DNA of 38,344 nt, from positions 1 to 38,344 of the forward strand of contig JAGWWP010000019.1 of NCBI GenBank assembly GCA_018970325.1, written 5' to 3'. Source of the DNA: Cyanobacteria bacterium REEB446. Lineage in GTDB: Bacteria > Cyanobacteriota > Vampirovibrionia > LMEP-6097. The position numbers were made by a program, and so were the translations under genes. Within the stretch, counting starts at the first letter, position 1; each line of letters begins with the position of its first letter. The notes beneath the pieces were generated by a model. That model was not told the DNA's origin and made no database searches. It saw only the letters and a program-made list of their open reading frames with translations. This document shows positions 2,609 through 30,860 of the stretch, piece after piece.

Positions 2609-2660
2609 GGGACTGCTCTTAATCTTCAATTTCTGCGTTTTCATCGTCCTCATGACACTC
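2609..2660 (-). repeat. Dispersed repeat copy R1
   Basis: On the minus strand this reads GAGGACGATGAAAACGCAGA followed by AATTGAAG, ending with AGAGCAGTCCC. The same end sequence terminates copy R5. It fills almost the whole gap between two minus-strand genes. The opposite inverted-repeat arm is missing, so it is a half element. Confidence 0.8.
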
Positions 2661-2662
2661 TT

Positions 2663-4213
2663 CTAAAAGACTCTGAGAATTTTATTCGCCACAATGTCGC
2701 CAGAGACTATGTCTTCTGCTTGAATTGGAATGCTGAATGTACCAGATAGCTCGTTTCCTAATATTCGTACAAATTTATTTAATGAGCTATATTTTACTTT
2801 AATAATTTTAGTAGTTTCATTAGATCTTATTCTTACAGGGTTTTCAGAGAAACTAATTAGGTTACCATAATCTGTAGAAAGATTGATGTAACGTGAACCT
2901 GAGCCGATTTTATCGATTCTTAGATTTATAAACTGTGCTTTACCTTCGGTAAGAAATATAACTTGATTAATAGCCTTACCACTTAACTCAAAATTAGCAG
3001 GTTCATTCTTTCCTAGATTGATTTGTATATTATTAATGTTTTCACCAGCTACGATATCTATTTTAAAAGCTTGGGCTAGAGCAGAATCTAAATCTAGATT
3101 CTGTAAAACATCCTCACTGCCATTGTAGAAAGATTTAGGAATAGAGCTTGGATTGTCTGGTGGATTATGCAAGCCGACTGATGAACCAGAGGTAAAACCT
3201 GCTGCAATAGGCTCTACTTTTATTACATAAGAACCTGGGCTTAGGTAAGGAAGCACAAAATTACCCTGTCCTAATCCATCTACGTCGCTTGCTGATGTAA
3301 CTACTTGCTGAAGAGGATTGCTGATATTGTAGGCAATTACATTTGCTCCTAGTACAGCTTGACTGCCATTAATTAAGCTACCAGTAATAGTTCCAGAATT
3401 ATTAATTATCTGATTTCTAGGATAAGCGATATTGATTGAAGATATATCATCTTTCTGGAGATTCAATGTGGGATTAGCACTGATAGGGAACATGATGGGG
3501 AATGTATTTAGATCTAAATCTGGAGAACTTTCCCCATTTGCAAATTTTTCATACTCGTCTATTTGTCCACCTTGACTGTGATCTAAGCCGACCATATGTG
3601 CAAATTCATGTAATATGGTGGATTTAAACTCATTGAGCAGTGTATTTAGATCTGGAACATCTGGGCGATTACTAAGTTTATAAAGATAGCCATTAATCAG
3701 GGACTGTGATTCAACGATGCCAGTAATTTGATTATTTTGGACACTGAAAAATCTAGCTGATGCTAAGCCAAGAATATCATTCTCTGAGCCTGCCCCCAGT
3801 ACATCAATCAGTATTTTCCCTGAATCATCGAAGATGATAGGACTGTAGCCAAGGGGGGCATCTGAAAAAAGTATAGAATTATAATTAGTTTCATCTACGT
3901 CGGAGGATATTAATCCATCACCATCTAAGCTGAAATCTAAGCTAGAAACGTTTTCCCACGTACTCAGAATTTGATTTACACTATTCTGTAAAGTAGCGTT
4001 ATTGAGATCTCCTAAAACACCTCTATCTATGCGGTATTTCACCGTCGCACTGCCATTGTTAATTTTATAAGTAGGGAAAAATAATTTATTTGATGAACAG
4101 TTCTCTGGAACCAAATTTTGATCCAAACAGACACCCAGTAAACCAGCAGCTTTAACGGGATTAACCGTGAAAAGACTGATACTAAGGAAGCTTAAAATGA
4201 TTAAAAGGTGCAT
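2663..4213 (-). CDS. Secreted matrixin-like zinc metalloprotease
   Basis: A signal peptide covers about residues 1-23 (MHLLIILSFLSISLFTVNPV), so the protein is exported. The catalytic motif HEFAHMVGLDH, near residues 201-211, is the HExxHxxGxxH zinc site of metzincins, and the downstream FPIMFP may supply the Met-turn. The C-terminal half (about residues 260-516) is probably beta-rich. It includes a segment like a carboxypeptidase-regulatory or CNA-B fold (SGTITGSLINGSQAVLGANV) and may bind a surface or substrate. The substrate is unknown. No Shine-Dalgarno sequence is seen, and a 24-bp perfect palindrome lies 7 bp upstream of the start. Confidence 0.8.
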   Translation of the reverse strand: MHLLIILSFLSISLFTVNPVKAAGLLGVCLDQNLVPENCSSNKLFFPTYKINNGSATVKYRIDRGVLGDLNNATLQNSVNQILSTWENVSSLDFSLDGDGLISSDVDETNYNSILFSDAPLGYSPIIFDDSGKILIDVLGAGSENDILGLASARFFSVQNNQITGIVESQSLINGYLYKLSNRPDVPDLNTLLNEFKSTILHEFAHMVGLDHSQGGQIDEYEKFANGESSPDLDLNTFPIMFPISANPTLNLQKDDISSINIAYPRNQIINNSGTITGSLINGSQAVLGANVIAYNISNPLQQVVTSASDVDGLGQGNFVLPYLSPGSYVIKVEPIAAGFTSGSSVGLHNPPDNPSSIPKSFYNGSEDVLQNLDLDSALAQAFKIDIVAGENINNIQINLGKNEPANFELSGKAINQVIFLTEGKAQFINLRIDKIGSGSRYINLSTDYGNLISFSENPVRIRSNETTKIIKVKYSSLNKFVRILGNELSGTFSIPIQAEDIVSGDIVANKILRVF

Positions 4214-4220
4214 GAGTGTT

Positions 4221-4244
4221 TTAAGAAGCTTATAAGCTTCTTAA
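4221..4244. promoter_or_regulatory. Perfect 24-bp palindrome upstream of the metalloprotease gene
   Basis: The sequence is an uninterrupted inverted repeat whose half-site is TTAAGAAGCTTA. It sits 7 bp before the metalloprotease start codon. It could be a dimeric repressor operator or a leader hairpin that hides the start. It lacks a T-run on the gene's strand, so it is a poor terminator. Confidence 0.45.
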
Positions 4245-4351
4245 TTCTAAATGATTTCCTTCCGTATTTGATGTAGGGTGGTCATTATAAAATTATTATT
4301 TATCTTTAGCAGATGCATTATTTTTACTTTGCAAAAATCCTTAAAAAATAT

Positions 4352-4370
4352 TATAATTATTAATTCGAGG
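4352..4370 (+). promoter_or_regulatory. rplS promoter -10 and ribosome binding site
   Basis: TATAAT at 4352-4357 has a weak -35 (TTTGCA, 4329-4334) 17 bp upstream. GAGG at 4367-4370 is 5 nt before the ATG. This is one of the few genes here with a conventional leader and Shine-Dalgarno sequence, so it contrasts with the leaderless-looking genes. Confidence 0.6.
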
Positions 4371-4375
4371 AAATT

Positions 4376-4762
4376 ATGAACCAGCTTATTAAAGATATAG
4401 AATCTAAGCACCTTAAAGCGGAGCCACCAGTAATTAGAGTAGGGGATACTGTTAAGGTAGAGACGATTATTCAGGAAGCGAGTGGTAAAGAGCGTTCTCA
4501 GCATTTTGAAGGTCTAATCATCGCAAGAGCTGGTACTGGAGTTAATGAAACTTTCAGAGTAAGAAGAATATTCCAGGGTGTCGGTATAGAAAGAACTTTT
4601 TTGGTTCACTCACCGAAAATCAGAGCAGTTAAAGTTATCAGAAGTGGTAGAACTAGAAGAGCGAAGCTTTATTTCCTTAGATCTAGAATCGGTACTAAAG
4701 CGACTAGACTTCGTAATCTTCAAATACAAACTACTCAAGAAAAATCTAATTCTGCTGATTAG
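4376..4762 (+). CDS. rplS: 50S ribosomal protein L19
   Basis: L19 sits at the 30S-50S interface of the ribosome. The 128 residues contain the family core: RVGDTVKVETIIQEASGKER (residues 22-41), FEGLIIARAGTGVNETFRVR, and the basic SPKIRAVKVIRSGRTRRAKL stretch followed by YFLRSRIGTKATRLR. A short tail rich in Q, T and S follows. It has a clear promoter and Shine-Dalgarno sequence and may be co-transcribed with the cyclophilin 34 bp downstream. In many bacteria rplS lies next to trmD and rimM, but these are absent here. Confidence 0.97.
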   Translation: MNQLIKDIESKHLKAEPPVIRVGDTVKVETIIQEASGKERSQHFEGLIIARAGTGVNETFRVRRIFQGVGIERTFLVHSPKIRAVKVIRSGRTRRAKLYFLRSRIGTKATRLRNLQIQTTQEKSNSAD

Positions 4763-4796
4763 TTTTCCGTATTGAATATATAAGATTATAATTTGA

Positions 4797-5516
4797 ATGA
4801 AAAAACAGGCTGATACTAAAAAAACACCTACACGTTTATTGGTATTTTTAGTATCTTTGCTTGTTTTTGTATCTGTAGGATTTTTTTTAAAAGGCCTGCC
4901 GATTTTTTCTGAGCTAGCTCAAACAAAACAAGCCGAAACAATAAAAGGAAATAAAAAAATGGAATCACAGGAATTAGAAGTTAAAAAAGAAGAAAAAAGT
5001 ATTGATGCTAAAGACACAGCAGTCTTAAAGACAGATAAAGGTGATATTAAAATTAAACTGTTTCTTAAAGAGGCTCCTATCACGGCTGGAAATTTCAAGG
5101 ATCTTGTGAATAGAGGTTTTTATAATGGTGTAGTATTTCATAGAATAATTCCAGGTTTCGTTGTTCAGGGTGGTTGCCCACTTGGTACTGGTACTGGAAA
5201 TTTCGTAGATCCAGAGACTAATAAAACTCGCTATGTGCCGATGGAGCACACTAAATTTAAGCATGACAAGGCTGGGAGAGTAGCTATGGCTAGAACTTCT
5301 AATCCAGATAGTGCTAGCAGTCAGTTCTTTATTGATTTAGCTCCTTTGCCTAGCTTGAATCCAGGTGGTGTAGATCCTTATGGTTATGCGATATTTGGTG
5401 AAGTTATCGAAGGAATGGATGTAGTTAATAAAATAGTTAAAGAGAATGTTCCGTCTTTCCCTGGTGATGATGGTGCGAGTAATCCAGTCAAAATCACTTC
5501 TGCTGAGATGATCTAA
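4797..5516 (+). CDS. Membrane-anchored cyclophilin-type peptidyl-prolyl isomerase
   Basis: The enzyme catalyses cis-trans isomerisation of proline peptide bonds. An uncleaved signal anchor spans about residues 13-32 (TRLLVFLVSLLVFVSVGFFL) and a charged K/E-rich linker runs to about residue 75. A cyclophilin domain follows, with FHRIIPGFVVQGG near residue 114 holding the catalytic Arg, and ASSQFFIDLAPLPSLN further on. It should act on the outer face of the membrane on exported proteins. The 239-residue length fits one domain plus anchor. No Shine-Dalgarno sequence precedes the ATG, and a TATAAT lies only 4 nt upstream, too close to be a normal leaderless promoter. Confidence 0.92.
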   Translation: MKKQADTKKTPTRLLVFLVSLLVFVSVGFFLKGLPIFSELAQTKQAETIKGNKKMESQELEVKKEEKSIDAKDTAVLKTDKGDIKIKLFLKEAPITAGNFKDLVNRGFYNGVVFHRIIPGFVVQGGCPLGTGTGNFVDPETNKTRYVPMEHTKFKHDKAGRVAMARTSNPDSASSQFFIDLAPLPSLNPGGVDPYGYAIFGEVIEGMDVVNKIVKENVPSFPGDDGASNPVKITSAEMI

Positions 5517-5522
5517 TGACAC

Positions 5523-5557
5523 TATTGCTGAACTTCAATTTCTGCGTTTTCGTCATC
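5523..5557 (-). repeat. Dispersed repeat copy R2
   Basis: The minus strand reads GATGACGAAAACGCAGAAAT and then TGAAGTTCAGCAAT. It lies between the cyclophilin stop and the ribE -10 box. Only the core half of the element is present, with no matching inverted arm. Confidence 0.75.
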
Positions 5558-5563
5558 TATAAT
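5558..5563 (+). promoter_or_regulatory. Predicted -10 box of ribE
   Basis: TATAAT starts directly after repeat copy R2 and lies 8 nt before the ribE ATG. There is no Shine-Dalgarno sequence in that gap, so leaderless initiation is predicted. Confidence 0.5.
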
Positions 5564-5571
5564 AAAGACTT

Positions 5572-6213
5572 ATGTTTACGGGATTAATAGAAGAAACAGG
5601 TTTAGTCAGCTTTTTAGAATATTCTAATACTAATTTGAAAATCAATATCAAAGCCGCTTTGATATTGGAAGATATAAAACTTGGTGATAGTATCGCCGTG
5701 AATGGTATCTGCCTTACTGTGACAGAGTTCGATGCCGATTCTTTTTCTGTCACTGCGGTAAAAGAAACTTTAGAAGTTACTGCTTTAAAATATTTGAAAA
5801 ATGACGATCTTGTAAATTTAGAACGCTGTCTCAGAGCTCATGACAGATTAGGCGGTCATATAGTACAGGGGCACGTAGACACCGTCGCTGAATGCATTAA
5901 GGTGCTAGATCAGTCTGGGAGCTATGATCTTTACTTTAGTATAGAACCGAATTTCTCGAAATATATTATCAATAAAGGTTCCATTTGTATTTCGGGCATT
6001 AGTCTTACTGTCGTGAAGGTAGGCTCTATGAAAGAACTTCAGGACATTAATGAAAATGTTTTGAAAGATTTAGATTATTTTTATGTAACTATAATTCCTG
6101 CAACTTGGGATAAAACAAACTTATCTCAAATTCAGGAGGGTGCAAAAGTAAATATCGAAGTAGATGTACTTGCCAAATACTTAGAAAGATTTATGGCTGC
6201 CGCAAAGCCATAA
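5572..6213 (+). CDS. ribE: Riboflavin synthase, alpha subunit
   Basis: It joins two molecules of 6,7-dimethyl-8-ribityllumazine to give riboflavin and a pyrimidine product, the last step of vitamin B2 synthesis. The start MFTGLIEETG is diagnostic. The protein shows two lumazine-binding barrels: GDSIAVNGICLTV in the first, and GHIVQGHVDTVAEC near residues 94-107 leading into the second. GSICISGISLTVV repeats the pattern. At 213 residues it is normal length. The other rib genes are not nearby. The start is supported by homology and by the TATAAT 8 nt upstream. Confidence 0.96.
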   Translation: MFTGLIEETGLVSFLEYSNTNLKINIKAALILEDIKLGDSIAVNGICLTVTEFDADSFSVTAVKETLEVTALKYLKNDDLVNLERCLRAHDRLGGHIVQGHVDTVAECIKVLDQSGSYDLYFSIEPNFSKYIINKGSICISGISLTVVKVGSMKELQDINENVLKDLDYFYVTIIPATWDKTNLSQIQEGAKVNIEVDVLAKYLERFMAAAKP

Positions 6214-6263
6214 GCCCCGCAAACGTGCAGAAGTTTTACTGGTGATCGATCTATAAAAAAGAG

Positions 6264-6350
6264 TGGTGGGCAGAGCTGGATTCGAACCAGCGTAAGCGTA
6301 ACGCTAACAGATTTACAGTCTGTCTCCTTTAGCCACTCGGACATCTGCCC
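6264..6350 (-). tRNA. tRNA-Tyr (anticodon GUA), CCA encoded
   Basis: The minus strand folds as a class II tRNA. The acceptor stem pairs GGGCAGA with TCTGCCC, followed by discriminator A and an encoded CCA (6264-6266). The anticodon arm ACAGA-CTGTAAA-TCTGT gives GUA. The variable arm is long (TTAGCGTTACGCTTACGC), as in bacterial tRNA-Tyr, and the T arm has GGTTCGAATCC. A GATAAT a few bases upstream may be its -10 box. The flank between the tRNA and fliG (6351-6479) shows no gene. Confidence 0.96.
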
Positions 6351-6479
6351 GCAAAAAATTATCACAGAAAATAAATACTTACTAGCTGTGCTAATTTTCA
6401 GAACTTTAATAATAGCTTATTTTTAAGCCTTGTGGTTTAAGAAATTATGGAGGTGTAGCAGTTTATGCTAAATCAAAAA

Positions 6480-7514
6480 TCACATAATCATAGCTTCTTC
6501 TTCACCTTCAGATCTAATCATGATTTGACCAGCTTCCTCAAGAGCTTTAATAATTTCAACTATCTGAGTTTGTGCTGCTGAAACGTCTTTCGCCATAACA
6601 GGTCCCATCATCTCAAGTTCATCTTTCAATAATGTAGCTGCTTTCTCTGACATGTTTTTAAAGAATAGATCTCGAATATCATCATCGGCACCTTTAAGGG
6701 CAAGAGGTAATCCTTTCATATCTATTTCTTTCATTAATGCCTGCATAGCTTTGTCGTCGAGTTTTATAATGTCCTCAAATACAAACATCAAGTTTCTGAT
6801 ATTTACTGCTAAGTTTTGGTCGATAATTTCTAAATCTTCGAGTATCTTCTTCTCAATATTTCTATCAAGCCTATTTAAGATTTCTGCAATAGCATCAACA
6901 CCACCAACATTCTGACTAGAAGAAGCTTGGTTCATAACGGCAGCAAACCTTCTTTCTAAAGTCTTTTCAACAACACTTAAGATCTCTGGATTGGTTTTAT
7001 CCATTTTCGCTAGTCTCAGTGAGCAATCAGACCTAATGTCTTCTGGTAAAAAAGCTAGAACTTTAGAGGCTTTTTCTACAGGTAAATACGAAAGAACCAG
7101 AGAAATTACCTGAGAGTGCTCACCTTGTATAACTGCAACTATCTGCTCTGCATCAACCAGTCGCAAGAATTCAAATGGTAGGCGATGGATGGTGTTCGTC
7201 ATTTTATCAAGTATGTTAGAAGCCACTTCACGACCGTAAGCTTGAATAAGAATATTCTCAGCTTTCTGAATACTACCGCTCATCTTACCTACCTGTAAGT
7301 TTAAGATATCGTATATTTCATCTAGTAGATTGTATTGATCTTCTTCGCCGAGTACCCCTACCATAGATATTTCTTTTGCTAGTGACACCACTAGTGTTGA
7401 ATCGTCTATGTGCTTGATAATTTTTGCAGCAGCACCTTCATCTAGGAGTAGCAGTAGTGCTGCTACTTTCATCCTATTCGTCCATGCTTTAATTTTATTA
7501 GCCTTGTAAGCCAT
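6480..7514 (-). CDS. fliG: Flagellar motor switch protein FliG
   Basis: FliG forms the rotor ring on the MS ring and interacts with the stator to generate torque and switching. The 344 residues cover the three domains: N-terminal (about 1-110), middle with GEHSQVISLVLSYLP near residue 130 (the EHPQ motif with Ser for Pro), and C-terminal. The C-terminal domain has LMFVFEDIIKLDD near residue 242 (MFVF motif) and the charged torque helix (KGADDDIRDLFFKNMSEKA). It stands alone, not in a fli operon. The start has no Shine-Dalgarno sequence. Confidence 0.96.
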   Translation of the reverse strand: MAYKANKIKAWTNRMKVAALLLLLDEGAAAKIIKHIDDSTLVVSLAKEISMVGVLGEEDQYNLLDEIYDILNLQVGKMSGSIQKAENILIQAYGREVASNILDKMTNTIHRLPFEFLRLVDAEQIVAVIQGEHSQVISLVLSYLPVEKASKVLAFLPEDIRSDCSLRLAKMDKTNPEILSVVEKTLERRFAAVMNQASSSQNVGGVDAIAEILNRLDRNIEKKILEDLEIIDQNLAVNIRNLMFVFEDIIKLDDKAMQALMKEIDMKGLPLALKGADDDIRDLFFKNMSEKAATLLKDELEMMGPVMAKDVSAAQTQIVEIIKALEEAGQIMIRSEGEEEAMIM

Positions 7515-7647
7515 AATCGGTAACTAGGGGTATTAAGCCCAGAATCCATAGTTTATATAACTAAAACTAAGTTTCTTTGGCTAATCTAATAGGAGTATCT
7601 CTCACCCTGTTATGATTGGAAGCAGTACTGAGGTTTAGATTATTTAT

Positions 7648-8784
7648 ATGAAGTTATTAGTTAACATAGTTTTTCTTTTTACGTTTTTCTCTTCGATACT
7701 AATGGGAGTATCAGCCGAATCATCGACAGAAGCTTCTGCTAAGCAGATTACTGTTCCGCAGTTTCAGATAGTAAAAGTTTTAGAAGTTTCTGCTCTAGAA
7801 AGTGTTTCTGGTAGTTTAGATCAATTAATTAGTGCTAAAGAGCAGCAAGTCAAAGTGAGAGTACTTAGTGATGGACCACAAAAAAATACAGAATTATTTA
7901 TCAATAATATAGTTCCAGACAATCTAGCTTTTGGCATAGTAGCTAAAAAAGACAAAGAATATATAATCTCTTTAGCAGATGATAATAATGAGGTTGCAAT
8001 TATAGATTATCATCGTAAGCCTTATGTAATAGGTCTTTTTATCTTATTTGTAGTTTTAATTATTGGTTTTTCTGGTTTTAAAGGTTTTAAAGCGATCCTT
8101 TCTCTTTTTGTAACAGCTCTTTCGATAATATATATTTTAATACCAGCTATTAAAGAGGGTTTTGATCCTATACTAGTAGGCATTTTTATTTCGGCAATAG
8201 CCACTGCTGTAACTGTAATTTCTATCGCAGGCTTCACGAAGAAAGCTTTTGCTGCGACTATCGGCAGTATTGGGGCAGTAGCTATCGCTGGTCTTACATC
8301 CTTTTTCGTTATTAAAGGGGCTCCCTTAAGTGGTCTTGCGAGCAATGAAGCACAGATCCTTTTAGCAAATAGCATGTATGGGGGTGCTAACAGTATGATG
8401 AATTTTCAAGGAATACTTTCAGCTGGGGTAATCATCGCAAGCTTAGGTGCAGCCATGGACGTAGCTGTATCTATTGCAAGTGCTACTCAGGAATTATATT
8501 TGACTGATATTAATCAGAGTTTTAATAATCTTTTCAAGCATGCGATGAATGTGGGCAAGGATATTATGGGTACTATGACGGATACGCTGATCCTTGCTTA
8601 TACTGGGGCTTCTCTGCCGTTATTTTTACTTTTAGAAAGCTATGAACCGAAAGCCTTACTGCTAAACATGGAAATCATCGTCACGGAGCTCACTTCAGCT
8701 TTGGCTGGTAGTATTGGGATTATATTTGCTATTCCTCTAACTGCTATTATCTCGGTCTTTATGTATAAGGGGTTTAAGCGTTAA
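7648..8784 (+). CDS. YibE/F family membrane protein
   Basis: A signal peptide (residues 1-23) and an extracytoplasmic region of about 100 residues are followed by roughly seven membrane spans from residue 126 (YVIGLFILFVVLIIGFSGFK). Typical family segments include GGANSMMNFQGILSAGVIIA, LGAAMDVAVSIASATQEL and GKDIMGTMTDTLILAYTGAS, which carry conserved polar residues within helices. The family has no firmly established function. The 378-residue length is normal. The ATG has TAGATT 6 nt upstream and no Shine-Dalgarno sequence. It is transcribed divergently from fliG across 133 bp. Confidence 0.88.
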   Translation: MKLLVNIVFLFTFFSSILMGVSAESSTEASAKQITVPQFQIVKVLEVSALESVSGSLDQLISAKEQQVKVRVLSDGPQKNTELFINNIVPDNLAFGIVAKKDKEYIISLADDNNEVAIIDYHRKPYVIGLFILFVVLIIGFSGFKGFKAILSLFVTALSIIYILIPAIKEGFDPILVGIFISAIATAVTVISIAGFTKKAFAATIGSIGAVAIAGLTSFFVIKGAPLSGLASNEAQILLANSMYGGANSMMNFQGILSAGVIIASLGAAMDVAVSIASATQELYLTDINQSFNNLFKHAMNVGKDIMGTMTDTLILAYTGASLPLFLLLESYEPKALLLNMEIIVTELTSALAGSIGIIFAIPLTAIISVFMYKGFKR

Positions 8785-8834
8785 GGCTAAGCCATTTTTT
8801 AGGTAAGGACTAAGAAATTAGCTAAAATGTAATT

Positions 8835-9479: not shown

Positions 9480-9483
9480 GGTG

Positions 9484-9552
9484 CGTGGAGCCGAACGAAC
9501 AAGTTCAAGGCTGAGGACGACGAAAACGCAGAAATTGGAGTTCAGCTCCACG
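9484..9552 (+). repeat. Dispersed repeat copy R3, with terminal inverted repeats
   Basis: The element starts CGTGGAGCCGAAC and ends GTTCAGCTCCACG, a 13-bp inverted repeat with one mismatch. The core GACGAAAACGCAGAAATTGG lies inside. It shares the stretch AACAAGTTCAAGGCTGAGGA with R5 apart from one base. It is placed between the phosphatase gene and the crcB leader and could fold as one long hairpin. Confidence 0.8.
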
Positions 9553-9596
9553 TCCTTAACTAGAATTTAATTTCAGTTTGTTAATAGAATAATAGT

Positions 9597-9710: not shown

Positions 9711-9720
9711 TTATTTAAGT

Positions 9721-9726
9721 TATAAT
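9721..9726 (+). promoter_or_regulatory. Predicted -10 box of crcB
   Basis: TATAAT lies 6 nt before the GTG start of crcB. If used, the transcript would start at the GTG and would not include the structured element at 9597-9710. Confidence 0.45.
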
Positions 9727-9732
9727 TTTTTA

Positions 9733-10107
9733 GTGAATACGATATTTTCTATTTCAATAGGAGCTGTTCTGGGTGCAGTACTCAGGCACTTTATGATGAC
9801 TGGGATAAGCCGCATCTGGGTGCAGAGCTATCCTTTAGCCACCTTAATTGTAAATGTTTTAGGTTCTTTTATTTTGGGGCTTTTAGTGGAGCTTTTTGCT
9901 TTAAAACTTTCTGTTAGTCAAGATTTAAAAGCTATGTTAACGGTGGGATTTCTCAGTTCATTTACGACATTATCAACAGTAGCATTGGAGTTTGCTTTAC
10001 TCAGCAGCAGAGGACAATTAAGCACAGCATTTCTGTATGTCACTCTAACTATGTTACTTTCGGTGGGAGCAGTGTTTTTGGGATTTTATTTAATTAGAAA
10101 TTTTTAA
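9733..10107 (+). CDS. crcB: Fluoride ion channel CrcB (Fluc)
   Basis: Fluc proteins are small dual-topology channels that expel fluoride. The 124 residues have four membrane spans with family motifs: GAVLGAVLRHFMM (Arg of the first helix), YPLATLIVNVLGSFILG (pore Asn) and GFLSSFTTLSTVALE (phenylalanine box and Thr/Ser track). Only one copy is present, so it probably acts as a homodimer. The GTG start is fixed by homology and by TATAAT 6 nt upstream. The 3' end overlaps the convergent gene by 18 bp. Confidence 0.95.
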   Translation: MNTIFSISIGAVLGAVLRHFMMTGISRIWVQSYPLATLIVNVLGSFILGLLVELFALKLSVSQDLKAMLTVGFLSSFTTLSTVALEFALLSSRGQLSTAFLYVTLTMLLSVGAVFLGFYLIRNF

Positions 10108-11205
10108 TCGATTATCTTTTAAATTTAAAATACTAAATTTATTAGCACGAGTTTTAGGTGCTAAGGCTAGAACATAGTTTAGTTCATCGTTAGAAATATC
10201 TATTTCTTGAAAACTCTTGGGTAACTTGAGTAAATTAAAAAGTTCCTCGAAATTTATTATCCTTTCAGGGGATTGATTTATTTTTTTTAAAACTTCAAGC
10301 TGCTGTGGATAAACGAAGTAACTCGCTATTGCCACTTGAATTCCGTGAGCAGCTTTAACACCGTGACCATAAATGGCATCTATGGCATGGGAGATCATAT
10401 GTTCACTACCAGAACAGGGGCTTGAATTATTTGCATAATACATTGCCATGCCTGATAATACTAGGGATCTAATAAACTGTCTTAAAAATTTTGTGCTGTA
10501 AAGAAGCTCTAGATTAGGTTTCATCGATTCTGCCACAGATCCATCATTTGATCGCGAGGCATAAATTAAATCTATTAATTCTATGGAACCCTGATATGCA
10601 AGATTAATCGCTTCTTGGCACTGCTCGCGAACTCCAATTTCTGCGTTTTCGTCTTTAAAGGCTTGGCTGATATAGCAATCATTAATGGCTGTGAAGTTTG
10701 CGATTAAATCTCCAATACCTGCTTGAATACTGATTAAGGGTGCTTTTTCTAGGGTATTTAAAGAAATCATCAGATGCTCTGGCATTTTGCTACCAAGGCT
10801 GAAGCCTGCTATTACTGATATAGGTGAAAAAATTCCATCATGTGCAGCATTACTAGGTATGGAGATAAAAGTCCGACCAGTTCTAAAAGATAGATATTTA
10901 GCGAAATCTAAGATTTTCCCTCCACCTATGCCGATTATCGGAGATTGAGATTTAAGGTATTCTTGAGCTAAATCATTTCTAATAGACTCTTTATTAATTT
11001 CAGGAGCGATAATAAGCTCTGAATCAATTAATATAGATTTGCACTGCTTAAATATCTCTTCACCAAGCTCTCTGTAGCTATTTGCACCACAGATAAATAA
11101 AGGGTCTTGGTATTGATAATTCTTGAGGATTTGAATTAATTTGCTAGATAGATCTATAGTTTTATCGAAAAAAATTACAGACTCTGGGATGTCATATTTA
11201 CGCAT
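10090..11205 (-). CDS. Glycerol-1-phosphate dehydrogenase-like (AraM/EgsA type) enzyme
   Basis: The family reduces dihydroxyacetone phosphate to sn-glycerol-1-phosphate with NAD(P)H and a bound metal. Visible motifs are IGIGGGKILDFAKYLS near residues 95-110, PSNAAHDGIFSPISV near residues 126-140 (metal Asp), and the two His-containing motifs SEHMISHAIDAIYGHG and AAHGIQVAIAS. The 371-residue length suits the family. Residues about 185-196 (DENAEIGVREQC) are encoded by repeat copy R4 and look inserted. It overlaps the upstream nucleotidyltransferase gene by 31 bp, so the two are probably coupled. The exact substrate is inferred. Confidence 0.82.
   Translation of the reverse strand: MRKYDIPESVIFFDKTIDLSSKLIQILKNYQYQDPLFICGANSYRELGEEIFKQCKSILIDSELIIAPEINKESIRNDLAQEYLKSQSPIIGIGGGKILDFAKYLSFRTGRTFISIPSNAAHDGIFSPISVIAGFSLGSKMPEHLMISLNTLEKAPLISIQAGIGDLIANFTAINDCYISQAFKDENAEIGVREQCQEAINLAYQGSIELIDLIYASRSNDGSVAESMKPNLELLYSTKFLRQFIRSLVLSGMAMYYANNSSPCSGSEHMISHAIDAIYGHGVKAAHGIQVAIASYFVYPQQLEVLKKINQSPERIINFEELFNLLKLPKSFQEIDISNDELNYVLALAPKTRANKFSILNLKDNRLKISN
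10617..10653 (-). repeat. Dispersed repeat copy R4, inside a coding sequence
   Basis: The minus strand reads GACGAAAACGCAGAAATTGG followed by AGTTCGCGAGCAGTGCC. It lies in frame within the glycerol-1-phosphate dehydrogenase gene and encodes DENAEIGVREQC. It matches copy R6 in a different gene in both sequence and reading frame. Confidence 0.85.
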
Positions 11206-20411: not shown

Positions 20412-20496
20412 GGAGGCTATTAAACCATGCTTCGCTACACCCCAAGCCCTATAGCTTGGGTCCCCAAGTTTCGCTCTTCATGGCTTAATAGCCTCC
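20412..20496 (+). terminator. Nested hairpin after the M23 peptidase gene
   Basis: An outer 18-bp inverted repeat with one mismatch (GGAGGCTATTAAACCATG with CATGGCTTAATAGCCTCC) encloses an inner hairpin CCCAAGC/GCTTGGG. A T4 tract follows. It can work as a terminator on the plus strand. Its size, about 85 bp, is unusual for an intrinsic terminator and more like a small palindromic element. Confidence 0.6.
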
Positions 20497-23157: not shown

Positions 23158-23187
23158 TCACCCCCGAACGGACGCAGGGTAGTTTAT

Positions 23188-23308
23188 GGGACTGCTCGCA
23201 AACGTACAAGTTCAAGGCTGAGGAGGACGAATGACCGCAGTGTACTTAACGTACATGAGGATCATGAGGACGACGAAAACGCAGAAATTGAAGTTTGAGA
23301 GCAGTCCC
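23188..23308 (+). repeat. Dispersed repeat copy R5, longest member with terminal inverted repeats
   Basis: The 121-bp element begins GGGACTGCTCGCAAAC and ends GTTTGAGAGCAGTCCC, 16-bp inverted arms with one mismatch. Inside are AACGTACAAGTTCAAGGCTG, an extra internal stretch with GTACTTAACGTAC, and the core GACGAAAACGCAGAAATTGA. It has no coding capacity, so it is MITE-like or a folded RNA element. It lies between the AAA-ATPase gene and rodA. Confidence 0.85.
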
Positions 23309-24606: not shown

Positions 24607-24650
24607 GGTCTAATTATTACAATCTAGCATTATTCAGATATAGTTCCATT

Positions 24651-25355
24651 ATGCTTCAAGTTAATTTAGAAAATTATAAAATGAACCTCGAATTTTGGGA
24701 GGCTGCATGGCAAAGAGTTAGTAAAGCTGTGTATACTCCGCCTAATCTTGAGTATATAAAAAATATAATTCCAGATTTAAAAAAATATCCAATAACAAAA
24801 ATTCTTGATTTAGCTTGCGGCTCTGGTTGGTTATCTTTTATGTTAGCGGAGGCTGGTTTTCAAGTGCGCGGTGTGGATACTTCAGAGGCGGCAATTAAGC
24901 TTGCGAAGAAGGGCAACGCAGTGAATGTAGACGAGGGCAACAAAAACGCTGAAATTGGAGTTCGGGAACAGTGCCTAGATGTGGAATTTTATTGTGCGGA
25001 CATACTGGATATGGATTTAACAGAGAAGGATTTTGATTGTGTAATCATGAATGCTTGTCTTGAGCATTTTGATTTAGCTAGTGCTACTCAATTGTTAGCT
25101 AATTTAAAAAAGCATTTAAAGCCTAAAGCATATATTTATGGTGTTTTTGATATGGTGGCGACTAGTAATAAGGGTGAGTTTATATGCTTCGATGATGGTA
25201 CACGTCAATATTTAGATCCTATGCGGAAGGGCATGTATCTCAGAAACTATTCAGATGAGGACTTAGCGAAGTTATTTACAGAAGCAGGTTTTAAGCAGCT
25301 CAGTTATACGACAGTGGATAATGGCAGTCGAGTAGTAGTTTTAGAGTATGTCTGA
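24651..25355 (+). CDS. Class I SAM-dependent methyltransferase with a repeat-encoded insert
   Basis: The Rossmann motif ILDLACGSGWLSFMLAEAGF lies near residue 51, followed by VRGVDTSEAAIKLAKK and the acidic DFDCVIMNACLEHF near residue 128. The methylated substrate is unknown. Between strand 2/helix B and strand 3, residues about 88-108 are encoded by repeat copy R6 and end in NAEIGVREQC. That is a surface loop in this fold, so the enzyme may tolerate it. TATAGT lies 6 nt before the ATG. The 3' end overlaps the convergent gene by 15 bp. Confidence 0.85.
   Translation: MLQVNLENYKMNLEFWEAAWQRVSKAVYTPPNLEYIKNIIPDLKKYPITKILDLACGSGWLSFMLAEAGFQVRGVDTSEAAIKLAKKGNAVNVDEGNKNAEIGVREQCLDVEFYCADILDMDLTEKDFDCVIMNACLEHFDLASATQLLANLKKHLKPKAYIYGVFDMVATSNKGEFICFDDGTRQYLDPMRKGMYLRNYSDEDLAKLFTEAGFKQLSYTTVDNGSRVVVLEYV
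24911..24976 (+). repeat. Dispersed repeat copy R6, inside a coding sequence
   Basis: The core reads AACGCTGAAATTGGAGTTCG and then GGAACAGTGCC, preceded by GGGCAACGCAGTGAATGTAG, which resembles the left part of R5. It is in frame in the methyltransferase gene and encodes the same peptide as R4 (NAEIGVREQC). Confidence 0.8.
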
Positions 25356-26714
25356 GGCTAGCCACGCGACGATAGTCCCCTTAAGCTCTTGCTCCGTGCT
25401 AGATAGTTCTTGACTTAGTTTTCTGTCACTAGCTTTAGCCATGGCTTGAACTGGTCTTAGATCATAGACATAACGATCATTGTCACGAGAACAGTTATGG
25501 GTATACTGGCTGAGGTAAAAATTACAGGTTTTAACTGCAACTGCATCATCACTAGAAAGCCCGAACCCTCTGCATAAAAGAGGTCTAGCATGATAGATAG
25601 AACACCTACCTTCGACAAGAAAGGGGCAGGAATATTTATAGTTAAAGGGATTTTCTAATCCCTTCTCTTTGTTTTCAGAGATAGTCGTATCTATAATGGG
25701 CATTACTTCACCAAAGAGTTTTTTATGTTCTTCCTGAATACCTTTGGCTTTTTCTATCACTCCAGCTATTGGATAATTATTTTCTTTAATCCAGTTAAGC
25801 AGGAATTTATATTCAGTAAGGCTCATATGTGGTGAGGTGTAGTTACAACAATCCTCACATTTATGATAACCACAAGTATCTTTATAAATGCCTGTATATT
25901 CAATTACCTTATCCTGTGCTGCATCACAGTCATTTAAAATTTCATTCCAATTTTCTAAAACCAGGTCAGATGGAAAAGTTCTTGCGTTCTTGACTGTGCG
26001 GATTTCTGGAGGCAGTGTGGTAACTATATCTGCGGGCATAGCTTTTCTATATTCGAGCAGGTATTGTTCTGCAAGAGCTTCATTCTTCTTCTTTCTGTAG
26101 AAGAAAGCGAGCAGCCTTATCTTTTCAGCGTTTTGTCTTTCTTCAATATTCTCTATGCCTTCGCAAAAATCTATAAATTTAAAATTGAGCAATTCCTGTT
26201 CAGTGAGATCAAAACTCTCTTCAATATTTTCTTTTAATATATATTCAGCATAGTAGAAAACTATGTCTGGGATTAACTCTTTTAGTGCAAATAGATTTAG
26301 AGATTCTAGTTTTCTTTGTATCTTTTCAGAAAAACGTATATTTTTAAGTAGGATGAGAATGCTTGTAATTACCTTGGCCATGCCCTGAGAGAGGCGTTTT
26401 TTAGTAAAATTACTAGCAGATTTAGAGAAGAAATGATTCTCTGTAAGTGGTTTATCTGATAGAAGTAATACGAAAGACTGTAAAGCTTTAATTTCTTTCT
26501 CTGCAAGTAGATCTGGTCTTTCTTGGATTTTTAATTCAAACTCTTCAAATTTTTCAAAAGCAAGTAATTGTAAAAAACGTCTGAACCCTGAAGAATACTG
26601 CTGCCTATATTTTTTATCTTCCTCAATACAGATCTGATAATAGTCTTTAAACTTACTCCTATCGAAACTTTGACATCCAGAACTTTCTGCTTTGATGAGA
26701 TCAAGTGACTCCAT
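25341..26714 (-). CDS. YkgJ-type zinc/iron-chelating domain protein
   Basis: The C-terminal part has a Cys-rich site: TCGYHKCEDCCNYTSPHMSL near residue 275 and YSCPFLVEGRCSIYHARPLL followed by CRGFG near residues 360-385, with a later Cys in KTCNFYLSQY. This matches PF03692 (the YkgJ CxCxxCC domain), proposed to bind Zn or Fe. The N-terminal 230 residues are helical and Glu/Lys-rich with no recognised domain, so the 457-residue protein is much longer than YkgJ alone. An AATAAT 7 nt upstream of the ATG suggests a leaderless start. Confidence 0.8.
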   Translation of the reverse strand: MESLDLIKAESSGCQSFDRSKFKDYYQICIEEDKKYRQQYSSGFRRFLQLLAFEKFEEFELKIQERPDLLAEKEIKALQSFVLLLSDKPLTENHFFSKSASNFTKKRLSQGMAKVITSILILLKNIRFSEKIQRKLESLNLFALKELIPDIVFYYAEYILKENIEESFDLTEQELLNFKFIDFCEGIENIEERQNAEKIRLLAFFYRKKKNEALAEQYLLEYRKAMPADIVTTLPPEIRTVKNARTFPSDLVLENWNEILNDCDAAQDKVIEYTGIYKDTCGYHKCEDCCNYTSPHMSLTEYKFLLNWIKENNYPIAGVIEKAKGIQEEHKKLFGEVMPIIDTTISENKEKGLENPFNYKYSCPFLVEGRCSIYHARPLLCRGFGLSSDDAVAVKTCNFYLSQYTHNCSRDNDRYVYDLRPVQAMAKASDRKLSQELSSTEQELKGTIVAWLASDIL

Positions 26715-26774
26715 ATAATATATTATTCCTCATAAGCTTGGCCATTGGGCCATTTACTTGTAATATAGAATCGT

Positions 26775-27701
26775 ATGCCTAATTACTGTACAGTCTGTGG
26801 TGTCAAGTTGACCGCAAAAAATAAAATCTCCTATAGACCTAGTTCTTGCCGTGATTGTGAGCTTGAAAGAAAGAGATTATATTCTTTAAAAAGAAAGATC
26901 CAAAATGAATTAGAAGAAAAAGCTTCTAAGGCTGCGAAGCCTGCTAGCAAAGCTTCTGTTAAAGGTGTGAAGCCAACATCTAAAGTAGTGAAACCTACTA
27001 GTAAAGCTACAAAAGAAGTGGTACTTAAGCCCAAATTAACTAAGGTAGAAGAATCTAAATCTACGAAAGCGAAAAAAACTCCAGAAACTAAAAATAAAAA
27101 AATACAGCAACCAGTAGTAATAGAGCCAAAAGCAAAGACGGTCAAATTAGAGAAAAAGCTTACTGCTAAGAAGAAACCGACTAATTCATCAACTAAGGTT
27201 GTAGCCATTACTAAAGCAGAATCTTTAACGGCTAAGAAAAAGATAGCGAAAGGTGTTAAAGATGAGGATATTGATGAAAGTGTGTTGATAGAGGATTCAG
27301 ACATTGAAATTGTTGAAACCCCAGTAGTTGTGAAAGCTAAATCCGGTTCAGCTCCTATCGTTATACCTAGTTACATAAAGGAAGCTGCGAAGATTAAAGT
27401 CAAGAAAAGACGTTTAGGTAAGCTGCCTTCAGTTAAGTCTAAAAATGTTTCTAGCTTAAATAGTGATTCTCAATCAGAAGATGTAAGCTCAGTTTTTGCT
27501 TTAGGTAAAAATTTAACCGAAGAAGATTTACTTAGAGCTCCTTCTAATACACCTTGGGAGAGTTCTAGTTTCAAAATAGTCGATGGTTCATTCGTGGAGC
27601 ATGGTGCTGAAGATCAAGATGAGGCTAAGGGACCTAGTCCTGAAGAGATTAAAAATATAATCGAGAAGATCCGTCTTGAACATAAAACGAGAAGGGGATA
27701 A
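26775..27701 (+). CDS. Zinc-finger protein with long Lys/Ala-rich tail, upstream of the secretin
   Basis: Residues 5-30 have two CxxC pairs (YCTVCGV and SSCRDCELER) that can bind one zinc. Residues about 45-170 are low-complexity and strongly basic, with SKAAKPASKASVKGVKPTSK as a typical run. The acidic part (about 165-190) and a short C-terminal domain (AKGPSPEEIKNIIEKIRLEH) complete the 308 residues. No signal peptide is seen. The basic stretch recalls histone H1-like proteins, but I do not assign a function. The secretin start lies 1 nt after its stop, so the two are probably translated together. Confidence 0.7.
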   Translation: MPNYCTVCGVKLTAKNKISYRPSSCRDCELERKRLYSLKRKIQNELEEKASKAAKPASKASVKGVKPTSKVVKPTSKATKEVVLKPKLTKVEESKSTKAKKTPETKNKKIQQPVVIEPKAKTVKLEKKLTAKKKPTNSSTKVVAITKAESLTAKKKIAKGVKDEDIDESVLIEDSDIEIVETPVVVKAKSGSAPIVIPSYIKEAAKIKVKKRRLGKLPSVKSKNVSSLNSDSQSEDVSSVFALGKNLTEEDLLRAPSNTPWESSSFKIVDGSFVEHGAEDQDEAKGPSPEEIKNIIEKIRLEHKTRRG

Positions 27702-27702
27702 G

Positions 27703-29262
27703 TTGAAGAGAGTAATTCACTTCTGTTTAATAATTGTTTTAATTACAGCTACCTTTATAGGAGTTAATGCTGCTGCCCTAGTGAGTTTCTCTGCTCGTAA
27801 TGTTCCAGTTAGGGATGCTTTCGCTACTTTAGCTCGCATATCTGGTAAAAGTATTACGGTTAGTGGTGAGATTCAAGACAGGCAGCTCATTTCTGTGGTG
27901 GAAATTAAAGAGCAACCTTTCAATGAAGCTTTTATGAGCCTAGTCAGAGCTGCTGGTGTGGATTATATAGTTAGAGGTGATAACAACTTTACGATTCTTC
28001 GGGCTAATAGTAGATCTGATGTTAAACTCTTTTCTAGTCTAGAATCTAGTGATATAGATTTAACTAAGCCTTTAGAGGAAAGGTTCGCAGACCTTACTTA
28101 TGATAATGAAGACGTCTCTAATATTTTAAAGGATGTCGCTAATCGTTATGGTGTAGATATTATCCTTACGGCACAGCCGACTGAGAGGGTTACAGTTAAA
28201 TTAAAGAAGGCTACTTTAAATGACGCTTTAACTCTAGTGCTTTCTGGCAGCCAGTTTAAATTTACGAAATCAGGTGATGCTTATGTGATTTATAACAGTG
28301 CTAATAAAAACTTTAGTCTTTATAATGACACGGCTTTCATACCTTTAAATTTTCTTGATGCGGCAGAGGTAATTAAATTATTACCAGATGAGCTTAAGAA
28401 GCTCGCTAAATCTAGTGAAAAGCAGAATGCTCTGGTGGCTGATGGTTCAGTGGAAGATATAAAAAAATTAAAAGCATTTATTTTTGCCGTAGATCAGCCT
28501 ATCCCGCAAGTAGAGCTGGATGTTAAGCTAGTAGAGCTTTCTGAAAGATTTGGGCGAAGTATAAACCCGTATCAGAGGACTTTTGGTTTAGGTAGAATCG
28601 GTAGGTTCGCTCCAGATTTATCTACTTCTGCTGCGGACGATGTTATTAGCAGTGGCTTTAATTTAAATTTAGGAGCAGATGAATTTCAGATATTTAATGC
28701 TAAACCCACTCTAAATCAGAATTCATCTAATGCTCAGATTAAAGTCAGCCAGAGGCTTCTCGTCACTAGTGGGAAAAGTGCACAGATTAATTTCGATCAA
28801 GATGTAAATGTATTATTGAATGCTGCTAGTGGTACTGGTGGTGGTACTAGTATTGCCGTTCAGACACAGCAGATTCAGAGAGTTACAGCTGGTAATTCTT
28901 TGAATATTACTCCAATAGTCGGTCATGGTGGTATTATTACGGTTCAAGTCGAAGTTGAAGTTTCAGCTAATGGTGACATCAACCCAACAACAGGTATTCC
29001 AGTGAGTACTACGAGGCGTAAGATTAAATCAGAGGTTCAGATACCTAATCATAGAACTATAGTTATTGGTGGAATATTTGATGATCAGAAAACACGTTCA
29101 GCTAATAATCAAGTACCCGTGCTGAGTAAGATTCCTGTTATTGGTCAACTTTTTGGTAATAGTTCTAAATCAAAAAATCAAACTGAATTAATGATATTAA
29201 TCACTCCTCATGTTAAGAATGCAGATAAAGAACAGATACAGCAGTATTTCCCAACTACATAA
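27703..29262 (+). CDS. Secretin (PilQ/GspD family outer-membrane channel)
   Basis: After a signal peptide (LKRVIHFCLIIVLITATFIG) come STN/N0-like repeats (FSARNVPVRDAFATLARISG and ANRYGVDIILTAQPTERVTV) and the secretin barrel. The barrel includes KIKSEVQIPNHRTIVIGGIF and the C-terminal VPVLSKIPVIGQLFGNSSKS. Secretins form the gate in type IV pili and type II secretion. At 519 residues it is shorter than PilQ. TTG at 27703 follows GAAGGGG and avoids a 26-nt overlap. ATG at 27676 is the alternative. Confidence 0.9.
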   Translation: MKRVIHFCLIIVLITATFIGVNAAALVSFSARNVPVRDAFATLARISGKSITVSGEIQDRQLISVVEIKEQPFNEAFMSLVRAAGVDYIVRGDNNFTILRANSRSDVKLFSSLESSDIDLTKPLEERFADLTYDNEDVSNILKDVANRYGVDIILTAQPTERVTVKLKKATLNDALTLVLSGSQFKFTKSGDAYVIYNSANKNFSLYNDTAFIPLNFLDAAEVIKLLPDELKKLAKSSEKQNALVADGSVEDIKKLKAFIFAVDQPIPQVELDVKLVELSERFGRSINPYQRTFGLGRIGRFAPDLSTSAADDVISSGFNLNLGADEFQIFNAKPTLNQNSSNAQIKVSQRLLVTSGKSAQINFDQDVNVLLNAASGTGGGTSIAVQTQQIQRVTAGNSLNITPIVGHGGIITVQVEVEVSANGDINPTTGIPVSTTRRKIKSEVQIPNHRTIVIGGIFDDQKTRSANNQVPVLSKIPVIGQLFGNSSKSKNQTELMILITPHVKNADKEQIQQYFPTT

Positions 29263-29272
29263 AGGTCTCAAG

Positions 29273-29761
29273 ATGAAAACTTTTCCTAGATTGTGTTTAA
29301 TAATGATTTTATGCTTTCTTTTGGCTCCTCAAGAACTTTTGGCTAAATCAATAACAGATAAAAAACGTTTTGAGTTTGTTATTAGAAATTCTTTAAAAAA
29401 TCCGCTGAAAATTGCTGATTTTAAAATTCAAGATAAGGGTATTAATAAACTTGGTCTTAAAGATGTATCGAATCAATTCTATGTAAAAGTTAAAAACCAG
29501 TCACAGAGCAATATTCTTGCATATAAATTAAAAGTAAAAGAATACACTCCGTTTCAGGACGATTCTGTAAAAGAAATTATAATAACTTCTACTAAAAAAA
29601 TTAAACCGCGTAAGACTGATAAAGCTTATCAGGAACGTATGATTAATTTTCATTTAGAGACTTTATATATTATTGCAGTAGAAGAAGTTTTGTTTGAGGA
29701 TGGAACCGTCTGGTCTGCTGATAACGGTATAATTAAACCTCAAGGAAATGCTGAAAAATAA
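29273..29761 (+). CDS. Predicted exported protein, function unknown
   Basis: A signal peptide (MKTFPRLCLIMILCFLLAPQ) is followed by about 135 residues that I do not recognise. The mature part is Lys-rich with alternating hydrophobic residues (NQFYVKVKNQSQSNILAYKL), consistent with a beta-sandwich. A longer frame starts at 29210 inside the secretin gene. ATG 29273 is chosen for the signal peptide and the AAAGG motif upstream. It lies 10 bp after the secretin and could be a pilotin-like or accessory protein, which is inference from position. Confidence 0.75.
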   Translation: MKTFPRLCLIMILCFLLAPQELLAKSITDKKRFEFVIRNSLKNPLKIADFKIQDKGINKLGLKDVSNQFYVKVKNQSQSNILAYKLKVKEYTPFQDDSVKEIIITSTKKIKPRKTDKAYQERMINFHLETLYIIAVEEVLFEDGTVWSADNGIIKPQGNAEK

Positions 29762-29781
29762 AAAACAGTTAAGTATTCACC

Positions 29782-29958
29782 ATGTCAGATGAGATTCTCG
29801 ATGCTGAGTCTAGTACATTAAATAAAAATCTAGGTCCTATTGATCATTTAAGGCATTTGCTTAAAATAGGCTGGGAAGCTAAAAGCCCATTGATACAGTC
29901 ATTTATTATAAAATATGGTTTAGAGAGAGAATTAAAGCAAATCTTGGATGACAGGTAA
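29782..29958 (+). CDS. Small conserved-looking protein (58 aa) overlapping the Xer-like gene
   Basis: An ATG at 29782 opens a 58-codon frame ending in TAA at 29956-29958, starting MSDEILDAESSTLNKNLGPI and continuing DHLRHLLKIGWEAKSPLIQS. The second half is amphipathic helical (YGLERELKQILDDR). It overlaps the next gene by 11 bp, which suggests translational coupling. There is no homology I can name, so the call rests on codon continuity and position. Confidence 0.5.
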   Translation: MSDEILDAESSTLNKNLGPIDHLRHLLKIGWEAKSPLIQSFIIKYGLERELKQILDDR

Positions 29959-30820
29959 TTCAGAAACTAATCTTGAGCTTTTAGAATTTTTTCTAGATTT
30001 TCTGAAAACTAAATCTAGAAAGTCTTTGGATGCCATATCTTCCATTAGGCGTGATTTAGAGAAGTTTATTGAATATCTATCTATAAATAAGCTAGAGCTA
30101 AATGCTGAATCTATTAGAGGTTATCTAGCTTATCTCCAAGAGAACTATAATTTAAGCACGTATAAAGTTAAGCTATCAAGTTTAAGGCAGTTTACTAAAT
30201 GGCTAAATTTAGAAGATAACCCTTTCGATGGAAATCTAACTTTAAAAGCCACTCCAAATGAGCCTGCTGAAGATTTTTATACAAAAGCAGAACTTTTAGA
30301 AAAATTATCTGAGATTAAAGATCCAATTGAATTACTTTTTTGTGAACTTTTGTTTGAATTATGCTTATCTCCAGCTGAGCTTTTGAAAATAAAAGTTTTA
30401 GATTTTAATTTTGCGACAGCCTCATTTAGATTGCGATTTGGAGCTGCTGCCGAAAATGCTGGACTTGGGCTGCGAGAGCCGCCTAAGCTTACCGAAATAA
30501 AGTTATCAGATGGTTTAGCGCTGAGATTAAAACAGTTTTTAAAAATGAAAGAAGGACTTAGTTTAGATGCAGTCATCTTTACTGGAATCCCTGAATTAGA
30601 TTCAGAAGTTAAAATAGCTAAGTTATTAAAGAAGCATGATATTCAGGCTAAGAAATTAAAACGCAGTCGCATAGTACATTTACTTGAAGACGGTTTAAGT
30701 ATTCAAGCTTTAGAAAATAATTTAGGTATTAAAGTTCCAGCGAACTACTTATCATTAGCTAAAGAGACTAAAGACTATAAACTATTGAAGGCTTTTAAAG
30801 AGTTTCATCCACGAGCTTGA
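29948..30820 (+). CDS. XerC/D-like tyrosine recombinase homologue with lost catalytic residues
   Basis: Residues about 1-95 fit the SAM-like core-binding domain (FIEYLSINKLELNAESIRGY) and 110-290 the catalytic fold. Active recombinases have an Arg in TGLRxSEL, but here the site reads FELCLSPAELLKIKV (Arg lost). The HxLRH box reads KKLKRSRIVHLL and LGH reads LGIK, so the His residues are gone. The Tyr remains in ANYLSL. The beta-hairpin that normally carries the catalytic Lys is replaced by AENAGLGLREPP, the degenerate repeat R8. The 290-residue length is otherwise normal for Xer. It is probably inactive as an enzyme. Confidence 0.75.
   Translation: MTGNSETNLELLEFFLDFLKTKSRKSLDAISSIRRDLEKFIEYLSINKLELNAESIRGYLAYLQENYNLSTYKVKLSSLRQFTKWLNLEDNPFDGNLTLKATPNEPAEDFYTKAELLEKLSEIKDPIELLFCELLFELCLSPAELLKIKVLDFNFATASFRLRFGAAAENAGLGLREPPKLTEIKLSDGLALRLKQFLKMKEGLSLDAVIFTGIPELDSEVKIAKLLKKHDIQAKKLKRSRIVHLLEDGLSIQALENNLGIKVPANYLSLAKETKDYKLLKAFKEFHPRA
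30449..30483 (+). repeat. Degenerate repeat copy R8 inside the Xer-like gene
   Basis: GCCGAAAATGCTGGACTTGG and the following CTGCGAGAGCC match R4 at 23 of 33 positions and sit in the same reading frame. They encode AENAGLGLREP, compared with DENAEIGVREQ. This is an old or diverged copy if the family assignment is right. Confidence 0.45.
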
Positions 30821-30822
30821 TA

Positions 30823-30860
30823 GCATCATTGCCGAACTCCAATTTCTGCATTTTCATCTC
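30823..30860 (-). repeat. Dispersed repeat copy R7
   Basis: The minus strand reads GAGATGAAAATGCAGAAATT and then GGAGTTCGGCAATGATGC, core half only. It sits at the convergent ends of the Xer-like gene and the small membrane protein gene and slightly overlaps the end of the latter. Confidence 0.75.

Follow-up and report, generated by a model that had tools for sequence, protein, structure and literature searches.

A probable non-autonomous, MITE-like element dispersed in the genome of Cyanobacteria bacterium REEB446 and its relatives

A short repeat recurs along a 38,344-nucleotide stretch of DNA from Cyanobacteria bacterium REEB446 (contig JAGWWP010000019.1 of assembly GCA_018970325.1; hereafter the window, meaning the whole of this stretch), which raises the question of what kind of unit it is and how its copies came to lie both between genes and within them. 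An earlier note on the same sequence had recognized the repeat by a 19-bp core, listed seven copies and a diverged eighth, and likened it in behaviour, without claiming membership, to the Rickettsia palindromic elements (RPEs). The observations presented here are most probably explained by a non-autonomous transposable element, resembling the miniature inverted-repeat transposable elements (MITEs) and moved in trans. Comparison shows that a 121-bp unit with paired ends inserts with a 5-bp duplication of the target, yielding a 126-bp insertion equal to 42 codons. Copies between genes occur in both orientations, while inside genes almost only the plus orientation with its open frame 0 is found, and the shortened copies, composed of the core and the right arm, may be decay products of full ones. 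A putative transposase would act in trans and might, less surely, recognize a folded strand and not fixed end sequences; this is proposed because the arms vary widely between copies and genera while the pairing and the interior fold are kept.

The unit and its insertion sites

The core has seven matches with at most three mismatches in the window, compared with none in 100 shuffles, in agreement with the count in the earlier note, whose starting positions are correct within a few bases except for R6, which had been placed 28 bp upstream of its core. Absence of the core elsewhere in the genome had been named there as fatal to a dispersed family. Instead, the core is abundant in the window's own genome (G000; 2.25 Mb in 97 contigs, 93.2% complete), with 211 matches at up to three mismatches (6 for the reversed pattern) and 126 at up to one (0 for the reversed pattern), and the repeat, whole or partial, sits at roughly two hundred places. 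Among 60 genomes searched at up to one mismatch, matches were found in G000 (126), in two genomes of the same genus, Candidatus Melainabacteria LMEP_6097 (G001; 111) and Candidatus Caenarcaniphilales RE-15aug16-7 (G002, 54% complete; 58), and in Candidatus Caenarcanales DT_14 (G006; 2), the other 56 having none. A wider scan with the core gave single matches in unrelated bacteria among the matches listed.

The anatomy of the repeat was analyzed in 180 core copies, distinct within each genome (43 from G000, 83 from G001, and 54 from G002), a sample chosen by similarity to the core or to the window and hence biased. A left motif is present in 75 of these (full copies) and absent in 105, so that most copies examined are shortened; most of those without the left motif are cut on the 5' side to within approximately 10 bp of the core. 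Matches to the left motif at up to three mismatches number 75 in G000, 74 in G001, 40 in G002, and 5 in G006, so that remnants of the right side seem to be more numerous than those of the left, although the search patterns are of unequal length. Canonical spacing in 61 copies defines the 121-bp unit, whose ends pair over 16 positions (1-16), with position 12 mismatched in 22 of the 61. The end arms vary widely in sequence with their complementarity kept, as in GGGACTGCTC.../GAGCAGTCCC, GGCACTGTTG.../CAACAGTGCC, GGGCGTGTAG.../CTACACGCCC, and others. Longer forms, represented by 16 copies among the loci compared, carry 69-84 extra bases in the apical loop, an insert that was not found outside the element.

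The 5 bases flanking the 61 full copies on either side match at 0.63 per position, compared with 0.352 after shuffling (z 11), and are identical in 19 copies, whereas duplication lengths of 3, 4, and 6-9 gave z from -1.5 to 2.6. Similarly, a perfect 5-bp duplication borders five of eight copies (z 5.0) in G004, a member of another genus; this test covered 8 of its 11 copies, with GAGACC-type ends and boundaries set by eye after an automatic attempt. Orthologous places could be located for 99 of the 180 copies. The comparison with relatives, which the earlier note had recommended, revealed empty orthologous sites, and shared flanks do not explain the copies. For instance, an HPPK/GNAT open reading frame (ORF) contains a 126-bp in-frame insertion in G001 that is absent in G002. 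At position 20495 the window lacks a full copy present in G002; the flanks there are altered (134 bp difference), and G001 carries a different, shorter relative. A difference of exactly 126 bp appears in eight comparisons of full copies: one is a clean insertion, one a tandem pair, and six oppose a shortened plus a full copy to a single shortened one, which we read as probable loss or gain between repeated cores, in either direction. The intact window copy R5 occurs at the same place in G002 and is absent in G001, whose site also has an unrelated 76-bp difference; a clear target duplication is not seen at this copy. R1 has an equal-length counterpart in G002 at the orthologous place.

The repeat thus agrees with MITEs in its short unit with terminal inverted repeats, in the target-site duplication, found in the genus and in G004, in the lack of a transposase within the unit, and in the mobility shown by empty sites. 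It lacks a conserved terminal sequence, which is usual for MITEs, though not part of every definition.

Fold and residence in reading frames

The consensus fold of 58 distinct full copies predicted by RNAalifold has an energy of -41.8 kcal/mol; the minus strand reaches -34.7, and 60 column-shuffled alignments only -5.6 (sd 2.3). It contains isolated Watson-Crick pairs at every third position with tandem G.A mismatches between them, the latter being present in 20-24 of 24 copies at eight positions in an alignment of two genera (A1, in which row L072 was entered one base off). Double changes were observed in 21 of 33 pairs in a plain alignment of two genera, with a covariation of 0.383 against at most 0.117 when slid; in a model-fitted alignment of 56 copies from ten genomes outside the genus, itself fitted to the structure, the values are 30 of 33 pairs and 0.686 against at most 0.120. 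The folded shape is conserved far more widely than the sequence. Random repair of hairpins would poorly explain the kept mismatched rod, because such repair would remove the mismatches. The folding strand may be either RNA or single-stranded DNA; the asymmetry between G.U and A.C in the arms, tried as a strand test, amounts to 54 versus 28, but 12 of the 28 come from one column, and it is only suggestive.

All 88 clearly genic copies have the plus orientation, and 87 of them use frame 0. Stop codons are lacking from plus frame 0 in 54 of the 61 full copies and from minus frame 0 in 41, and none of the 61 is open in any of the remaining four frames. When the element and one duplication are computed out of the 61 copies, an ORF spans the site in 24 cases and not in 37; 23 of the 24 are in plus orientation, in phase 0, and open, and one is interrupted. 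In a second gene call, ORFs hold 36 plus and 1 minus full copies and 64 plus and 1 minus shortened ones, whereas between co-directional genes there are 8 plus and 13 minus full copies and 14 plus and 8 minus shortened ones; 38 of the 75 full and 40 of the 105 shortened copies are called intergenic. Because the bias within ORFs is absent between co-directional genes, insertion itself shows no steady preference for one strand, and it is persistence within genes that appears to be under selection.

Where genic copies differ in length from one species to another, the difference is a multiple of three in 47 of 47 comparisons, as against 20 of 42 for other copies, in counts where one event may be entered from both sides. 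Among the host ORFs, Pfam matches were obtained for tRNA synthetase E/Q, M17 aminopeptidase, phosphorylase, the Fe-S subunit of dihydroorotate dehydrogenase, and radical SAM proteins. Translation of the genic copies is strongly indicated, and a palindromic unit in frame within protein genes is a feature shared with RPEs. The possibility that the short copies are independent insertions was rejected: their core plus arm is open in 86-95 of 105 cases in each of five frames and in 44 in the remaining one, yet 56 of 57 clearly genic ones use a single frame. At offset 1086 on the minus strand of locus L203, an ORF that reads like the beginning of a dethiobiotin synthetase seems to draw its GGAGG-type ribosome site and its ATG from the left half of an element.

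The proposed mobile element and other readings

Several results weigh against an element moved in trans. REP and REPIN elements are linked to Y1 (RAYT) transposases, and identity with such a system was rejected, as the Y1 family (PF01797) has no match in the window's own genome, while 5 of 14 control genomes are positive. Reverse transcriptases (RVT_1) have no match in eight of nine genomes of the order, the own genome included and some of them incomplete, and four in G006. No mobilizing enzyme was therefore found among Y1 proteins of the own genome and RVT_1 proteins of the order, other transposase families not having been searched. An autonomous relative was not seen at the copies of G000 with a non-canonical left motif, which were read for 230 bases only, so that a longer relative is possible. 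With automatic boundaries, no clear duplication emerged in G006, in G003, G005, G007, and G008, or in family f8, and the shortened copies have no significant duplication at the left edge (4 perfect versus 5.0 expected, 56 with four of five bases versus 44.5). Many copies are common by descent to the three species, so that p-values computed over the copies overrate their independence. The minus orientation is almost missing from genes despite often being open; stop avoidance alone does not account for this, and selection against the minus-orientation peptide is our guess. Finally, the wider alignment retains the G.A mismatches only in part, in 52 of 56 and 31 of 56 rows at two places and in 10 of 56 at another (columns picked by hand).

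The last observation bears on a more ambitious interpretation, namely that the repeat belongs to a widespread superfamily, of which it would be the first branch to be seen, and whose small mobile members are recognized through a folded single strand of RNA or DNA and not through their end sequence. Such elements would combine a rod of G.A mismatches (clear in the genus and in G006, partial further out), arms of free sequence, and a 5-bp duplication; they would be carried by phages and, in one genus, be adapted to in-frame read-through in conserved enzymes. We advance this tentatively and consider it rather doubtful, slightly more so because the mismatches are incompletely retained in the wider alignment.

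The same fold could belong to a retro-element, comparable to a short interspersed nuclear element, in which the plus-strand RNA rod would be the mobile intermediate that is reverse-transcribed and inserted. In single-sequence folds the plus strand is the more stable one in 58 of 58 copies, a G-U pair is kept in 54 of 55 distinct rows of the model-fitted alignment, and the 5' shortening described above would suit such a route. Nevertheless, RVT_1 has no match in eight of the nine order genomes, and target-primed insertion is not known to give one fixed duplication length, whereas only 5 bp is observed here. Nor is a significant duplication found at the 5' edge of the shortened copies, whose frame lock points to an origin by decay of full copies. 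We regard a retro-element as unlikely.

Conservation of the fold over families, full copies that abut the 3' end of an adjoining ORF in several cases, and copies between ORFs on phage contigs could also reflect a structured regulatory RNA, such as a terminator or a processing or stability hairpin, selected site by site and spread by ordinary duplication. This is quite improbable in view of the empty orthologous sites with the 5-bp duplication, of the insertions within ORFs of the tRNA-synthetase E/Q, M17 aminopeptidase, and phosphorylase types, of the patchy distribution, often with several copies per genome, and of the fact that full copies lying between co-directional genes favour neither orientation (8 versus 13).

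Selection on the encoded peptide (...DENAEIGVREQC...), with the DNA merely following, would account for the single frame of genic copies and for the near absence of the minus orientation from ORFs in spite of its open frame. About half of the full copies and many shortened ones are nonetheless intergenic, and in distant genomes the pairing is kept although 47 of 53 copies have no ORF running through the element and 60 bases on each side; a protein-level repeat is accordingly very improbable. Local duplication or shared ancestry of flanking genes, to which tandem arrays with a 126-bp period in some places might point, is hardly credible given the 211 dispersed core matches and the empty sites of relatives that have conserved flanks and unrelated copies elsewhere.

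Distribution, known repeats, and the copies in the window

A transposable element moved in trans remains the preferred reading, and its folded form was traced beyond the genus with two structure models. Model R1 has 12-73 matches per genome in all nine genomes of the order (E<=0.01; 150 candidates scored per genome) and, at the stricter threshold of E<=1e-4, hits 15 of 194 class genomes; a single match in G075 was discarded, as it was not recovered with model R2. The latter model matches 18 of 382 class genomes, in families f1 (9), f8 (4), f3 (3), and f9 (2), 6 of 386 genomes in a phylum sample, and 4 of 18 genomes in the class of G204, one of these by a single weak match; the class, phylum, and G204-class samples overlap. 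Beyond the order, the element is thus patchily distributed among other Cyanobacteriota. Contamination is possible in several genomes with matches, because they are incomplete metagenome-assembled genomes. Structural copies also occur on two IMG/VR phage contigs, three on one with capsid genes and one on the other, which has terminase, portal, and capsid genes; a further IMG/VR contig (L110) has a weak match (21 bits). Searches of plasmid and phage records by sequence gave no matches or only short weak ones. An rRNA operon of G025 harbours one copy between its 16S and 23S genes (L248:541-659). Of the 13 copies listed for contigs C1-C3 of G015, 12 occupy the minus strand; no replichore signal emerged when GC skew was measured in 20 sampled stretches.

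The element does not belong to a known Rfam family: no Rfam 15 match at E<=1 was found at the element in the window or in 15 + 6 further loci, where the listed matches are tRNA, rRNA, and one tRNA-overlapping plastid family. Searches of open-licence PMC papers, judged by title and the start of the abstract, turned up no description of it.

According to excerpts of two papers, RPEs are stem-loops of 105-146 bp with terminal inverted repeats, present in many copies, in frame in conserved genes and between genes (PMC2229807, PMC10969869). The present repeat, a palindromic multi-copy unit of similar size, resembles them in its dispersal, paired ends, empty sites, 5-bp duplication, and in-frame residence, which bears out the comparison made in the earlier note. 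It resides, however, in Candidatus Caenarcaniphilales / Melainabacteria and not in Rickettsiales, and the likeness is one of behaviour. The target duplication of RPEs is entered as "?" in the table of a 2007 review (PMC2229807), whereas three related species here display the duplication together with empty sites and the frame lock. Varying but paired arms, a G.A-rich interior, and a fold shared across families are not mentioned in the excerpts of PMC2229807 and PMC10969869.

ERIC/RU-1, YPAL/RU-2, RU-3, and Correia/NEMIS are likewise described, in the excerpt of PMC2229807, as small and non-autonomous, mostly with terminal inverted repeats and target duplication, and with some in-frame fusions. 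Compared by description, the present element likewise has terminal inverted repeats and a target duplication and differs in having no TA ends, nearly one genic frame and orientation, and a long covarying interior fold. It is longer than the palindromic, high-copy REP/REPIN elements (PMC3733652, PMC3116915, in part) and differs from them in the 5-bp duplication and in the lack of a Y1 match in its own genome. Like PARCELs, which the available part of PMC2996958 describes as tandem amphipathic repeats of 25 residues, it places dyad-symmetric DNA inside reading frames and is patchily spread; its own units lie scattered for the most part and, where they form tandem arrays, recur every 126 bp. New here are arms that are free in sequence yet complementary, and the strong covariation of the interior fold. 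A conserved fold with freely varying arms leads to a testable claim on structure-guided transposition, and the genus offers a natural experiment on how conserved enzymes tolerate and trim inserts of 42 residues.

The window copies are listed in Table 1 together with the phage-borne and longer forms. Their variation in length and their occurrence on both strands, between genes and inside ORFs, are as the earlier note had described; it missed the 121/126-bp unit, the duplication, the frame lock, and the conserved fold. The five core copies other than R3 and R5 consist of the core and the right arm, approximately 37 bp. The eighth copy of the earlier note, R8, lies below a safe threshold, and the G001 stretch aligned to it retains the arm-like string GAGCAGTC, which makes a decayed copy plausible.

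Table 1. Copies of the repeat in the window and selected copies elsewhere
Feature	Coordinates	Strand	Core	Form and context
R1	2609..2645	-	2627-2645(-)	Shortened (core + right arm); between two minus-strand ORFs; ends just upstream of next start codon
R2	5516..5563	-	5536-5554(-)	Shortened; 48-bp insertion, orthologous site empty in G001 and G002
R3	9481..9555	+	9519-9537(+)	Internal-deletion form, both arms kept; flanks TTAAG / TTAAC
R4	10617..10653	-	10635-10653(-)	Shortened; in frame in iron-type alcohol dehydrogenase-like ORF 10090-11205(-), read DENAEIGVREQC
R5	23188..23308	+	23272-23290(+)	Intact 121-bp element, the only one in the window; 117.5 bits to structure model R2
R6	24939..24975	+	24939-24957(+)	Shortened; in frame in methyltransferase ORF 24651-25355(+)
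R7	30822..30858	-	30840-30858(-)	Shortened; directly after stop of ORF 29948-30820
R8	30449..30467	+		Possible strongly decayed copy in ORF 29948-30820; 5 mismatches to core; weak
L288 (phage contig)	1483-1605, 2805-2921, 7547-7670	-		Between ORFs
L289 (phage contig)	7769-7889			Within ORF 7251-7916
Longer elements	L002, L007, L013, L107, L192, L195, L203, L206			Extra apical-loop lengths multiples of three except one of 77

The segment corresponding to R6 is absent from the G006 orthologue of the host methyltransferase. In the AlphaFold model of the host protein the mean pLDDT (predicted local distance difference test) is 66.5, and residues 77-98 and 100-116 fall below 50; the suggestion that the insert forms a loop was set aside, four sequences being too few for that conclusion.

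Three further stretches of the window have counterparts in related genomes. Another small repeat of dispersed type occupies positions 216-267; G001 has several places similar to it, some of them close to the ends of contigs. Places similar to 31703-31820 occur in G001, in G002 and, diverged, in G006. The contig end (38208-38344) recurs almost unchanged in stretches of G002 that are situated at the ends of contigs or close to them, and may mark an assembly-breaking repeat.

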